Shown one piece after another: positions 21,518 to 26,123 of a stretch of DNA of 35,622 bases; position 1 is the first letter of the stretch, and each line of letters begins with the position of its first letter. The stretch is from a bacterium (lineage in GTDB: Bacteria > Latescibacterota > Latescibacteria > Latescibacterales > Latescibacteraceae). The position numbers were made by a program, and so were the translations under genes. A model generated the notes under the pieces. That model did no database searches. It saw only the letters and a list, made by a program, of their open reading frames with translations, and had not been told where the DNA came from. The stretch lies in assembly GCA_021372535.1 (NCBI GenBank), contig JAJFUH010000070.1:1-35622 (forward strand), written 5' to 3'.

Positions 21518-21961
21518 TTATTTCTCCTTCAGCGTTTTTTTCATGAAATAGCGCTTGTGTCCATTCGGATAATCCTCGAGCATTCCGAATACTTCGTATC
21601 CGAGGCGCTCGTAAAAGGGCCGGGCCTGGAAACTGAATGTATCGAGATACGCATACTCACAGCCCTTTTTCCGGGCTTCCTCTTCAGCCCTGCGCATGAG
21701 CCGTGAACCGATACCCTGGTGACGGAGAGAGTCGTGTACCCATAATAAGTCGATAAACATCCAGTTCCACGCAATATCGGCTATGAGAGCGGCGTTGATG
21801 CCGCCATTATTATCACGGTTGAAGACACCGAGTTTAGTAAAATTTCTCGGGCCGGCCTGAGCATCCGTGGAAGTTCTGAGCGCCTGGGAAACCAATGCGA
21901 TGTCTCCCGGGTCCGGGTTGAATTCACATGAAATTTTCAAATCCTCTGGTGTATTTGACAT
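21518..21961 (-). CDS. GNAT-family N-acetyltransferase
   Basis: This 147-residue protein moves an acetyl group from acetyl-CoA to an unknown amine. The acetyl-CoA pyrophosphate-binding motif is 'LRHQGIGSRLM' (79-89), preceded by the beta4 strand 'MFIDLLWVHDS' and followed by 'CEYAYLDTFSFQARPFYERLGY', the usual motif A/B layout. This sub-type ('DTFSFQAxPFYxxxGYxVFG') is common and unassigned. AAAGG lies 7 nt before the start. It is 204 nt from the CcdA-like gene and is not obviously in an operon. Confidence 0.9.
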   Translation of the reverse strand: MSNTPEDLKISCEFNPDPGDIALVSQALRTSTDAQAGPRNFTKLGVFNRDNNGGINAALIADIAWNWMFIDLLWVHDSLRHQGIGSRLMRRAEEEARKKGCEYAYLDTFSFQARPFYERLGYEVFGMLEDYPNGHKRYFMKKTLKEK

Positions 21962-22165: not shown

Positions 22166-22876
22166 CTAATGTAACCACACTCTGCCGGCCTGAATAAGGA
22201 AGTATTCCCCGGCAGCGATCAGTAAGAATCCCATGATCTTCCTGACCCTGACCATCCATATCCCCGACTTTGGAAGTGCGGTGACGAGTCCTGCGAACGT
22301 GCCTACAAGGAGAAGGAGCACATTCATACCCATGGCAAATGTAAAGAGGAGGGTCGCGCCGAACAGGACATTCTGCTTCGTTGCCACATATGTCATGAGT
22401 ACACCGAGCATCGGCGTCGTGCAGGGAGCCATGATAAGACCTGTCGCCATTCCCATCATAAATGCTCCCGGGATGCCGCGCTTGTTCGTACCTACCTGAC
22501 TCTGTGAAAAAAACCGGGGCAGAGGCAGCGTGAAAACATCGAGCATCGACAACCCGAACAACAGGATGATATTCGCCACAACAAGCAATGTAACGGGGTG
22601 AGTGCTGACTTTTCCGAAAAAACTTCCGGTAAGCGAAGCGACGATTCCCAGCCCTGCATACGTCAGGGCGAGGCCGAGAACATATGCTGACGAGATGATA
22701 AATGCATGGAGCCGCCCGTTCTTTTCCTGCCCGCCGACAACCCCGATTGTAATCGGAATCATGGGATAAACACACGGGGTAAAGCTTGTGAGAACACCGG
22801 CGGAAAATACGGTAACATAGGATAAGAACCACGAACCATCGAGAAAACTCCGGGCGTTCTCAAACATTCCGTTCAT
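22166..22876 (-). CDS. CcdA/DsbD-type membrane electron carrier
   Basis: Proteins of this family carry reducing power across the inner membrane to periplasmic thioredoxin-like partners, for example for cytochrome c maturation or disulfide isomerisation. The 236-residue protein has six or more hydrophobic segments and the two conserved cysteine-proline sites: C35 in 'SFTPCVYPMIPI' and C152 in 'IMAPCTTPMLG'. The 'PCVYPMIPI' form is closer to the DsbD central domain than to CcdA. The periplasmic and thioredoxin domains of DsbD are absent. The start is the ATG at 22876 with GGAG 6 nt upstream; a TTG four codons earlier overlaps that site. It lies 60 nt after the ATP-grasp gene on the same strand, so cotranscription is possible. 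Confidence 0.88.
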   Translation of the reverse strand: MNGMFENARSFLDGSWFLSYVTVFSAGVLTSFTPCVYPMIPITIGVVGGQEKNGRLHAFIISSAYVLGLALTYAGLGIVASLTGSFFGKVSTHPVTLLVVANIILLFGLSMLDVFTLPLPRFFSQSQVGTNKRGIPGAFMMGMATGLIMAPCTTPMLGVLMTYVATKQNVLFGATLLFTFAMGMNVLLLLVGTFAGLVTALPKSGIWMVRVRKIMGFLLIAAGEYFLIQAGRVWLH

Positions 22877-22936
22877 GGTGTACTCCAATGTAATATCCCG
22901 TTAAAAGAATCACATATATCTGTGTAATTTTTAATG

Positions 22937-23893
22937 TCACCAGCTCCGGATCCGTTCCATGATTTTTTCAATGAGAGCTTTAAAAGATATGCTGGTTTCG
23001 GCAGCCTGTCTGACAAAAATCCCCGATACGGGCGACAAACCGGGCAGAGCGTTGACTTCCAGAAGGTACGGTTTCCCATCCGGGCAGGTTCTGAAGTCCA
23101 TCCGCGCATAGTCACGGCATCCGAGGATATCCCATATGGTACGCGCCATGATTTCCATTTCATGGAGCATGCTTCCGGGTGTCTGAGGCGTGAAATCGAG
23201 GCGGTCGGTATCGCGGCGTTTGTATTCGAAGCTGAAAAAGGGTATGCTATCCTCATGTCCGAGGAGAACTTCGCATATGGGTAAAATCTCAGGTGGATTA
23301 TTCCCCAGTAGTCCCACGCAGTAATCCCGTCCGTCGAGATACGGCTCCACAAGCGCCGGTTGGCCGTATTCTGTGTTGATTACCCCGACCCTCAGAACAA
23401 GCGACTCCATGTCTATGACGAGCGATTCACGTGAAATCCCACGGCTCGAACCATCCATGAGCGGCTTGACAAAGACGGGGAATCCGAACGGCGGCGGTTC
23501 GACAGGAGGATCGTTATAAACGATAAAGTCTGTTGTCCGAATTCCTGCGTCACGGGCAAGGCGTTTGGTCAATGCCTTGTCCATCGTAAGACCGAGCGTT
23601 GTTCCGTCCGAACCGGTGTACGGTATTCCGAGCATCTCGCACATGACCGGGACATACGATTCACGGTCGCGTCCACCATATCCTTCCGCTATATTGAACA
23701 CGATATCTGGAGTTTCCGCGAGAATCCGCGCGGGGAAATGCCTGTCGCAGGGCAGGAGAACAACATCTCCCGACCGTCTGAGGACTTCACGGATGGCCTC
23801 GATGGTCTCGGGTGTCTCGTACTCGGCATGGGCATCCGTGCCTTTTGTCGAGGAGTCCTTGATATTGTATGAAAATCCGATTTTCATCATCAT
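22937..23893 (-). CDS. D-Ala-D-Ala-ligase-like ATP-grasp ligase (third gene of the radical SAM cassette)
   Basis: ATP-grasp enzymes join a carboxylate to an amine or similar nucleophile through an acyl-phosphate. The 318-residue protein shows the Ddl-type fold: 'GIPYTGSD' (89-96), 'TMDKALTKRLA' with K106, 'FPVFVKP' with K143, 'LVEPYLDGRDYCVG' with E183, 'YARMDF' with D266 and 'LLEVNALPGLSP' with E279 and N281. These are the ATP- and metal-binding residues. It lacks the Ddl 'HGxxGEDG' loop and instead has 'FNIAEGYGGRDRESYVP', the mark of a large, uncharacterised sister family often labelled Ddl. A true cell-wall Ddl role is therefore doubtful. Its start overlaps the aminotransferase stop by 4 nt, with three ATG codons in a row and AGGA just before. 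Confidence 0.9.
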   Translation of the reverse strand: MMMKIGFSYNIKDSSTKGTDAHAEYETPETIEAIREVLRRSGDVVLLPCDRHFPARILAETPDIVFNIAEGYGGRDRESYVPVMCEMLGIPYTGSDGTTLGLTMDKALTKRLARDAGIRTTDFIVYNDPPVEPPPFGFPVFVKPLMDGSSRGISRESLVIDMESLVLRVGVINTEYGQPALVEPYLDGRDYCVGLLGNNPPEILPICEVLLGHEDSIPFFSFEYKRRDTDRLDFTPQTPGSMLHEMEIMARTIWDILGCRDYARMDFRTCPDGKPYLLEVNALPGLSPVSGIFVRQAAETSISFKALIEKIMERIRSW

Positions 23894-25014
23894 GATTCCT
23901 GACCGATACAGAAATCGTGGATACGGCTGAGCGCTTCACGGAACAGGGCAGGGTCCTGCCCGAGATTGATCCGCACATGGTTCTCAGCCTCGAAAGAACT
24001 TCCCGGGAGCACAAAAACGCCATATCGCCCTATAAGCCGTTGAACAAAATCATCGCTTGAAACAGGGTATTCAAACCGCGGAAACGCAACGATCCCCCCT
24101 TCCGGCATCACGAGCGAAAGACCGGGTGTCCGCATAGTCATATTGCTCAACAGGGATGCATTTTCCCGAAGCACATGAAGCGCCGGATTAATGAATGCAC
24201 TTGCATGCTCGAGCGCGAGAGCCGCACAGTAATCGCTCAGCGGTGAAAGGGTATGAGTGAGGTAGTCACGGAAATCACGAATCCTGCCGATAAGCGATTC
24301 AGGGGCGATGATCCAGCCAATTCTGAGGCCGTTCACCCCGAAACACTTGGTGATCGAGCCTGTCGCCACCACGTTTTCTTCGGGGCGCGCAAGCGTTCTC
24401 AACGGCCATCCGCCCTCGAAGGGCAGGAAGCGGTAGTGTTCATCGGAAAGGACTGTGGCGCCGTGGATTGCCGCTTTCCTGATGATGGATTCCGCTGTGT
24501 CGCAGGGAATGATGACACCCGATGGATTGTGAGGACTGTTGATGACCACTACACCGGTTGTATCGTCGATAAGGCCGCACACCTCATCGGGATCGGGCCG
24601 GAAGCCGTTTTCGTCGTCGAGGCGATAGAACCGTACATCGGCGCCAAGCGCGCGGGGGACGTCATAGAGCGCCTGAAACGAAGGCCGCGGCGCCACGACC
24701 GATGAACGGCCGTCCATGAGAAGGTTGAAGAGGATAAACAGCGCCTCGCTCGTTCCCGTCGTAGCCGTGATGTTCCCGAATTCGACATCGTCATCATTCA
24801 CGCAGGTGGAGAGTATCGCGTGACGGAGGCGTTCGGTCCCGCGTGTATCATGATCCTTGAGGATAAGGGAAGCGAGCGAATCCGGGGACTCTCCGCACCG
24901 TTCGAGCAGTTCACCCACCCGTATGTCGGGCATTCCGCTCTCGCCGAGGTTATAGGGGCATGAATCCTTGTTGGAGGCGAGCCAGTCCTCCATGAAGTAT
25001 CGCCTGATGTTCAT
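23890..25014 (-). CDS. Fold-type I PLP enzyme, aminotransferase class I/II, capreomycidine-synthase-like N-terminus
   Basis: The 374-residue protein has the fold-type I core: 'TGTSEAL' (86-92), 'NSPHNPSG' with N163, 'SDEHYRF' with D191 and Y194, the PLP lysine K223 in 'TGSITKCFGVNGLRIGW', and a C-terminal 'HVRINLG' arginine for the substrate carboxylate. The N-terminal 'FMEDWLASNK...YNLGESG' recalls capreomycidine synthase (VioD), a PLP enzyme that cyclises hydroxyarginine rather than transaminating. That likeness is from memory and only suggestive. It overlaps its neighbours by 4 nt on both sides (ATGA), so radical SAM, PLP and ATP-grasp enzymes are made together. The substrate is unknown, and it may be an ordinary amino-acid aminotransferase. 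Confidence 0.88.
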   Translation of the reverse strand: MNIRRYFMEDWLASNKDSCPYNLGESGMPDIRVGELLERCGESPDSLASLILKDHDTRGTERLRHAILSTCVNDDDVEFGNITATTGTSEALFILFNLLMDGRSSVVAPRPSFQALYDVPRALGADVRFYRLDDENGFRPDPDEVCGLIDDTTGVVVINSPHNPSGVIIPCDTAESIIRKAAIHGATVLSDEHYRFLPFEGGWPLRTLARPEENVVATGSITKCFGVNGLRIGWIIAPESLIGRIRDFRDYLTHTLSPLSDYCAALALEHASAFINPALHVLRENASLLSNMTMRTPGLSLVMPEGGIVAFPRFEYPVSSDDFVQRLIGRYGVFVLPGSSFEAENHVRINLGQDPALFREALSRIHDFCIGQES

Positions 25015-26123
25015 GGAGCCACTCTGTCGGCAAGTATATCCAGTGTCTCCATAACGCGGGATGCAAGCGGGCGTTCGTCCGTTTCATCGAGACGTTCTCT
25101 CCATGCCGGGATACACGTACACCAGTCATATTCCAGCGATTGTCTGTCCCTGAAGATATTATACCTGTTCAGCAGACCATCCAGAAGACTGTTCGTGCAT
25201 GAGGGGCATCCTTCCGGAATCATGGCGGGCCGGGGCATATGGAGGAACGGACTCACATAGGGCCTGATTTCAGGAACCACCGCCCGTAAAACCTCATAGA
25301 GCGTATAGAGCGAAGGAAGCCTGAACAGTCCCTCCCGGCAGAGCAGTTCTACAAGGGTATACCGCTGGAGCGTTACCGGCTCGATATGGATTTCATCGGC
25401 TCCCATCTCGTGAGCGAACCGCAGCGATTGAATGGTATCGTCGAGCGCTTCACGTTCGGTGAGAAAAGGGAGTCCCGAGAGAACATAAAGCTGGACTCCC
25501 GCGAGTCCTTTCACCATGCGGACTGCAACCCTGATTTCCTCCGCAGTACACCCCTTGTTGACACAGAGCTCCCGTTTCAGGTCATCGGCAGTCTCAAGCC
25601 CCATCGCTATGAAGAGTCTACGGTCCGGCCCGAGTATATCGAGCAGTTCACCGATGACCGCACGGTCGGCATAACAGGCTCTTGTTTCGAGCACGACTTT
25701 TTTTATGGCCGGAAGTCTTCGGATATCCATGAATATGCGTTTGAGCGCATCGAATCCGATTTCATCGGGATTGAGCATCGAACCCGAGTTGTAAATTGAA
25801 AGAACGGAAATGTCACCGGGATCATACCGGGATATCTCTGTACGGAATTGCGAGACGAATTCGTCTGCGGACGGCAGCGCTCCGCGTGTCGTTCCGGCAT
25901 AATGACCGCACATGGTACATCCGCCGCCGGCTTTCACCCAGGAACATCCGGGGGCGCGCAGTGTTATGACGAGACGGCGGACCGGGAGGCCGTCTATGTA
26001 CCCGGTTCTGATATCGGATGATGCGGCGACGTCCCGCGGGAAAACCATGCCCGGTGTGGACGACCGGATCGATCGAAGTATACCGCGAAGCGCTTCAAGA
26101 GATTCATGTACAGAATTATTCAT
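25011..26123 (-). CDS. Radical SAM enzyme with CX8CX2C cluster motif (RaSEA/TIGR01210-like)
   Basis: The 370-residue protein has an unusual cluster motif, C60-x8-C69-x2-C72 in 'APGCSWVKAGGGCTMCGHY', instead of the common CX3CX2C. That spacing and the 'GCSW...GGCTMCG' context resemble RaSEA, the archaeal radical SAM enzyme that cuts a lysine adduct on tRNA to make archaeosine. A TIM-barrel core follows ('LSIYNSGSMLNPDEI', 'VVLETRA', 'MGLETADD', 'YVLSGLPF', 'EIHIEPVTLQ'). The C-terminus has four cysteines (C306, C309, C335, C337) that could bind zinc or a second Fe-S cluster. It is the first gene of the three-gene overlap. The substrate is unknown; a tRNA role is possible but not shown. The GGAG site is rather far (12 nt) from the ATG. 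Confidence 0.88.
   Translation of the reverse strand: MNNSVHESLEALRGILRSIRSSTPGMVFPRDVAASSDIRTGYIDGLPVRRLVITLRAPGCSWVKAGGGCTMCGHYAGTTRGALPSADEFVSQFRTEISRYDPGDISVLSIYNSGSMLNPDEIGFDALKRIFMDIRRLPAIKKVVLETRACYADRAVIGELLDILGPDRRLFIAMGLETADDLKRELCVNKGCTAEEIRVAVRMVKGLAGVQLYVLSGLPFLTEREALDDTIQSLRFAHEMGADEIHIEPVTLQRYTLVELLCREGLFRLPSLYTLYEVLRAVVPEIRPYVSPFLHMPRPAMIPEGCPSCTNSLLDGLLNRYNIFRDRQSLEYDWCTCIPAWRERLDETDERPLASRVMETLDILADRVAP

Follow-up and report, generated by a model that had tools for sequence, protein, structure and literature searches.

The enzyme RaSEA is known from archaea, where it acts on tRNA, and a radical SAM protein related to it is the subject of this study. Several antibiotics have cyclic arginines among their building blocks, and the genes adjoining this protein invite comparison with these. 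In the biosynthesis of capreomycidine and guanitoxin, a hydroxylase step precedes VioD or GntC (for guanitoxin, PMC10367076), and the active-site residues of GntC include E9, S25, N52, T84, F108, K219, H250, and R346 (PMC10367076). Here, we examined a stretch of 35,622 nucleotides (the window, in what follows, is this whole stretch) from a Latescibacterota draft genome, G000, in which an earlier note had drawn attention to a radical SAM gene. The features of interest are:

25011..26123, reverse strand: RaSEA-like (TIGR01210-related) radical SAM gene; 370 aa, ATG start; first gene of the operon
25908..25946, reverse strand: codons of the radical SAM cluster motif C60-x8-C69-x2-C72, seen in the sequence and invariant in the family alignment
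25113..25208, reverse strand: codons of C306/C309/C335/C337, a possible second metal site; kept in nearly all family members, including the archaeal protein L019
23890..25014, reverse strand: GntC/VioD-like PLP-dependent enzyme (fold type I), 374 aa; GntC model 295.6 bits, 8fft E 2.5e-78
22937..23893, reverse strand: D-Ala-D-Ala-ligase-like ATP-grasp enzyme, 318 aa; PF07478 E 2.7e-27

The radical SAM protein and its family

The open reading frame at 25011-26123 was found as the earlier note had described it, encoding 370 aa on the reverse strand with C60-x8-C69-x2-C72 and C306/C309/C335/C337. TIGR01210 (RaSEA), the pattern to which the motif had been referred, is the sole NCBIfam match of the protein (E 3.2e-48), which upholds the assignment to the family, but the score of 164.6 bits lies below the curated cut-off of 212.15 bits; a Pfam scan gave no family at E<=0.001. 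The AlphaFold model (mean pLDDT 90.8, pTM 0.91) has a radical-SAM-like fold, and its top structural match is the queuine lyase 6p78 (Z 16.8, 222 residues, 3.4 A), with Elp3 and biotin synthase within 1 Z unit of it in the same structure comparison. By sequence profile, 6p78 is also the closest solved relative (E 5e-13), the match covering family-profile positions 55-208 only. As to Elp3 and MiaB, the NCBIfam scan lists only TIGR01210, and the structural match to Elp3 ranks like those to other radical SAM enzymes.

All seven cysteines are invariant in three Latescibacterota orthologues as well as in 13 family members drawn from several phyla, so the combined pattern of C60/C69/C72 and C306/C309/C335/C337 is not due to chance; orthologues in two relatives, which keep all seven, are 62% identical to the window protein. 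The x8 spacing varies within the family, reaching x9 or more in some members of the 13-member alignment. The earlier note had taken the C-terminal cysteines to suggest a further metal site. They may indeed bind metal, but because nearly every family member has them, an archaeal protein above the RaSEA cut-off among these, they are no hallmark of a site peculiar to bacteria, and we rejected them as a special feature in favor of a family-wide trait.

Judged from its sequence, the window protein is a genuine bacterial relative of RaSEA. It has C60, C69, C72, and 34 other invariant columns in common with archaeal L019, which scores above the RaSEA cut-off, carries the four C-terminal cysteines, and groups with the window protein. 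In the tree, the operon-encoded radical SAM proteins and a Myxococcales protein, L018, make up clade I (support 99/98). TIGR01210 scores among homologues include 196 bits for the orthologue L001 and 225.9 bits, above the cut-off, for L017. Because five bacterial members (L017, L020, L023, L026, and L060) pass the cut-off, three of them in NRPS clusters, the name “archaeosine biosynthesis radical SAM protein RaSEA” is, as we read these scores, over-propagated to bacterial proteins. This serves as a warning: by cut-off, the automatic name fits bacterial proteins that sit in natural-product clusters.

The family is rare, with few matches, many of them weak, in a scan of ~1,280 genomes and public collections, and the literature searched assigned no function to its bacterial members, in agreement with the earlier note. 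Clostridia operons group clade II members with a methyltransferase, a B12 radical SAM enzyme, and a B3/4 tRNA-editing domain; in Alkaliphilus, a member fused to an aminotransferase domain belongs to an NRPS/PKS cluster; and Aminicenantes has one inside an NRPS cluster. Two Streptomyces plasmids, pFRL5 and pFRL3, carry more distant members together with genes for a P450, SHMT, a glycosyltransferase, and a carbamoyltransferase.

Several loci merit description in their own right. On the two Streptomyces plasmids (L033/L034, 17836-28980), the RaSEA-like gene comes first in a shared cluster of P450, SHMT, GT9, carbamoyltransferase, and RfaE2-type genes, likely an uncharacterised natural-product cluster. 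A carbamoyltransferase gene, as in the Streptomyces cluster, also directly precedes a distant RaSEA-like gene in genome G595 (L058:450-2789). At L025:4217-7340, L027:7935-11169, and L032:5827-8673, in Solidesulfovibrio and a viral contig, the RaSEA-like gene is accompanied by a LysR regulator and a short transporter-like (small-molecule) gene. One of these copies (L032) lies in the contig classed as viral; a search of phage records gave no relative of archaeal L019. A free-standing B3/4 tRNA-editing gene adjoins RaSEA-like genes of the other clade at L020:6325-10559, L023:6417-9751, L026:7875-9829, and L059:7588-9585, beside B12/radical SAM or NRPS genes at three of the four loci, and this domain might provide self-protection against a mischarged amino-acid analogue. 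It was ruled out as a part of the window's system, as the only copy in the window's group is in a PheT-sized protein.

The three-gene operon and its partner enzymes

The best clue to the function of the radical SAM enzyme is a three-gene operon, which the earlier note missed in its view of the context. The radical SAM gene (25011-26123) is followed by the genes for the PLP enzyme (23890-25014) and the ATP-grasp enzyme (22937-23893), with a 4-base overlap at both junctions. The same three genes, in the same order, are found in two other Latescibacterota genomes (G001, of the same genus as G000, and G003, at 62-68% identity) as well as in two from a different lineage (G060 and G077; 40-46%), and across both lineages they stay together, overlapping or abutting. 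Upstream of the operon lie APRT and acylphosphatase genes, which we read as housekeeping genes. A GNAT gene (21518-21961) and a DsbD-like gene (22166-22888) were rejected as operon members, each being absent from some relatives; the latter, which follows the operon and also occurs in L016, encodes the DsbD transmembrane domain without its usual N- and C-terminal domains. Among the genes conserved with the cassette, none for export or self-protection was seen.

The link between the radical SAM protein and the PLP enzyme extends beyond the operon. All six clade I genomes encode both the radical SAM protein and a close GntC-like enzyme, although in the Myxococcales genome G061 the latter (43% identical) is on another contig, unlinked to the radical SAM gene. 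Clade II genomes have no close GntC-like enzyme, or only weaker, aminotransferase-grade matches near 247 bits, a level also seen for an aminotransferase group that is 27-32% identical. The exception is Aminicenantes G068, whose close GntC-like copy belongs to the pair at L060: there, the genes for a radical SAM relative and for a PLP enzyme (38% identical) share 4 bases, and the pair is flanked by two NRPS genes, one of which has radical SAM and B12 domains. As the L060 radical SAM protein falls in a distant subclade of the tree, having lost several residues that close members keep invariant, its association with a GntC-like enzyme is either ancient or of two separate origins. For peptide-bond formation, the partner is an NRPS at L060 and an ATP-grasp enzyme in the window. 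The A-domain immediately after the L060 pair, when read against a reference sequence, has the code DGQDLLAVEK; its acidic residues fit a polar or basic substrate, the code not being diagnostic.

Among solved structures, GntC (8fft, E 2.5e-78) is the first match of the PLP enzyme, ahead of 3op7, an uncharacterised aminotransferase, and 4m2j, the streptolidine-pathway cyclase OrfR. In an alignment read by hand, the residues at the GntC sites are E9, S26, D54, S89, F113, K223, H254, and R348: GntC E9, S25, F108, K219, H250, and R346 have identical counterparts, and N52->D, T84->S, and S26->G are changed. The active-site pattern of the window enzyme is invariant in six homologues. The enzyme scores below the NCBIfam cut-offs for GntC (295.6 of 415 bits) and VioD (234.5 of 390.9), and because of this and the three changed positions it could be an ordinary aminotransferase. 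In genome G1030, the gene for a 41% identical PLP enzyme is divergent from a weak Cupin_8-like gene (match below the Pfam cut-off), which is suggestive of a hydroxylase partner.

The third gene probably encodes an amide ligase. Its product keeps the ATP/Mg-site residues, and the active-site tyrosine of Ddl, which we take to be Y216 of E. coli DdlB, is replaced by Arg in all three Latescibacterota proteins; a separate, stronger housekeeping-type Ddl elsewhere in the window genome retains the tyrosine. In G060, gene 3 forms a fusion with a KamA-like aminomutase domain, the position of a contig break in G077 is consistent with the same arrangement, and the window genome has an unlinked, stand-alone KamA-like gene that is 51% identical to the fused domain. 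A Thioflavicoccus plasmid with a ligase relative carries diaminopropionate and diaminobutyrate synthesis genes. The fusion or adjacency of ligase relatives to KamA-type aminomutases suggests that the substrates are basic or diamino acids; no KamA gene was found near the ligase homologues on rhizobial plasmids. Two of these neighborhoods are gene sets in themselves. Contig C68 of G060 (L127:4342-8451) has a series of overlapping or abutting genes, namely KamA, two D-Ala-D-Ala-ligase-like ATP-grasp genes in tandem, and a GNAT-like gene, possibly a beta-lysine peptide cassette. On the Thioflavicoccus mobilis plasmid (L107:2536-8017), diaminobutyrate transaminase, SbnA, ornithine-cyclodeaminase-type, and ATP-grasp genes stand in a row with KamA beside them, possibly as a diamino-acid peptide operon.

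Proposed function of the cassette

One explanation of the locus is that the radical SAM protein acts as a RaSEA in bacteria, or as a closely similar tRNA/7-deazaguanine enzyme with a lysine adduct or queuosine as its substrate, and that the downstream genes are incidental. The sole NCBIfam match to TIGR01210, the grouping with an archaeal protein above the RaSEA cut-off, and the position of queuine lyase as best sequence and structure match among solved proteins all point this way. We nevertheless consider it quite unlikely, given the unmet TIGR01210 cut-off, the conserved operon with amino-acid enzymes, the homologues in NRPS and other biosynthetic contexts, and the content of the genome. The earlier note was correct that no archaeosine, queuosine, ArcS, or TGT gene adjoins the radical SAM gene in the window, and the genome-wide check that it proposed gave one PF01702 (TGT-type) match each in G000, G001, and G003 (drafts, 91-97% complete), that of the window genome lying on contig C234 and not on the operon contig. 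As ArcS is a TGT relative (PMC11298593), a second PF01702 match would be expected were ArcS present, and the PF01702 search gave no sign of an ArcS-type paralogue in the window's genome, although in a draft this falls short of proving absence. A TGT was likewise not seen in the archaeal genome G062 (0.7 Mb, may be incomplete), whose own protein is above the RaSEA cut-off. Taken with the missed cut-off and the operon context, the single TGT without an ArcS-type paralogue led us to reject true RaSEA function as the main reading. As the earlier note expected, a substrate other than tRNA-bound preQ0-lysine is likely.

We consider it probable instead that the three enzymes produce a non-proteinogenic, probably arginine- or lysine-derived amino acid and join it to another amino acid, and do not modify tRNA. 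This interpretation draws on the three-gene order with 4-base overlaps, kept in G001, G003, G060, and G077; on the GntC-like enzyme in six of six clade I genomes and the radical SAM-PLP pair amid NRPS genes at L060; on GntC as top solved match of a PLP enzyme with preserved active-site residues; on an ATP-grasp enzyme that has lost the Ddl tyrosine yet kept its ATP/Mg site, next to a separate housekeeping Ddl; on three ties of the ligase family to KamA (the G060/G077 fusion, G060 C68, and the Thioflavicoccus plasmid); and on other radical SAM homologues in NRPS/PKS or Streptomyces biosynthetic clusters. Against it, we count the distance of the L060 radical SAM protein, the PLP enzyme's scores below cut-offs, the unlinked genes of G061, the lack of KamA near rhizobial ligase homologues, and the lack of a conserved exporter or self-protection gene.

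From gene content, order, conservation, and preserved catalytic residues, we infer a substrate, a product, and a series of chemical steps. The radical SAM enzyme would abstract a side-chain hydrogen from a basic amino acid, be it arginine, lysine, or a derivative, leaving the side chain oxidised or a C-N bond broken, comparable to the action of RaSEA next to an amidine nitrogen. The PLP enzyme would then complete an elimination, cyclisation, or transamination, and the ATP-grasp enzyme would activate a carboxylate and couple the new amino acid to another, taking the place of the Aminicenantes NRPS.

The product could also serve for protection, for instance as a solute of the beta-amino-acid type or as a stress peptide, and not as an antimetabolite, with a plain aminotransferase as the PLP enzyme and a radical SAM enzyme of aminomutase or lyase type. 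Beta-lysine derivatives are known solutes, the ligase family is tied to KamA-type aminomutases, and the genes conserved with the cassette include none that is toxin-like or for resistance; however, the PLP enzyme is similar to the GntC and OrfR cyclases, with equivalents of E9, S25, and H250 kept, and the NRPS cluster at L060 contains a pair of this kind, so we regard this as unlikely. That the radical SAM enzyme acts on a carrier- or peptide-bound substrate (NRPS or ribosomal peptide), as the several relatives in NRPS clusters might suggest, seems very improbable indeed for an operon in which no carrier-protein or precursor-peptide gene was seen and whose partner enzymes resemble those of free amino acids.

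Within the preferred interpretation of a free basic amino acid that is modified and then coupled, a more specific idea can be put forward tentatively, as possible though doubtful. By analogy with capreomycidine and guanitoxin biosynthesis, the cassette might be an O2-independent route to a cyclic arginine-type amino acid, in which the radical SAM enzyme would carry out the side-chain C-H oxidation in place of the hydroxylase, with the PLP enzyme then closing the ring and the ATP-grasp enzyme attaching the product to another amino acid. The idea stems from the known step order in those pathways and from the weak hydroxylase-like neighbor of the G1030 PLP gene. If a radical SAM enzyme does replace an O2-dependent hydroxylase, this would be new chemistry for cyclic arginines, and the compact three-gene cassette is directly expressible and testable. 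What makes the locus interesting is its operon, together with the extension of the RaSEA family beyond tRNA, rather than the cysteine motif. The evidence points to a wider family with a bacterial use in amino-acid and peptide biosynthesis.

Comparison with known systems

The window protein is like RaSEA in sequence family, CX8CX2C motif, core residues, and the four C-terminal cysteines seen in archaeal L019, but it is bacterial, falls below the family cut-off, has no ArcS-type partner, and is encoded in an operon with PLP and ATP-grasp enzymes. QueL (6p78), a radical SAM lyase and the best combined sequence-profile and structure match, is a chain of 251 residues, compared with 370 aa in the window, and leaves the C-terminal cysteine part unmatched. 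GntC, OrfR, and VioD are among the best matches of the PLP enzyme, which keeps the equivalents of the catalytic Lys, Glu9, Ser25, and His250; the known cyclases follow a hydroxylase, whereas the window enzyme is paired with a radical SAM enzyme. With D-alanine--D-alanine ligase, the third protein has in common the ATP-grasp family and the ATP/Mg-site residues, but it has Arg for Tyr, and its relatives are fused to or adjoin KamA. Bacilysin-type dipeptide pathways contain, to our knowledge, no radical SAM enzyme. We take them to be the functional analogue of the cassette, an analogy of function only and not a sequence comparison, in that an ATP-grasp ligase couples an amino acid that has first been produced in modified form.
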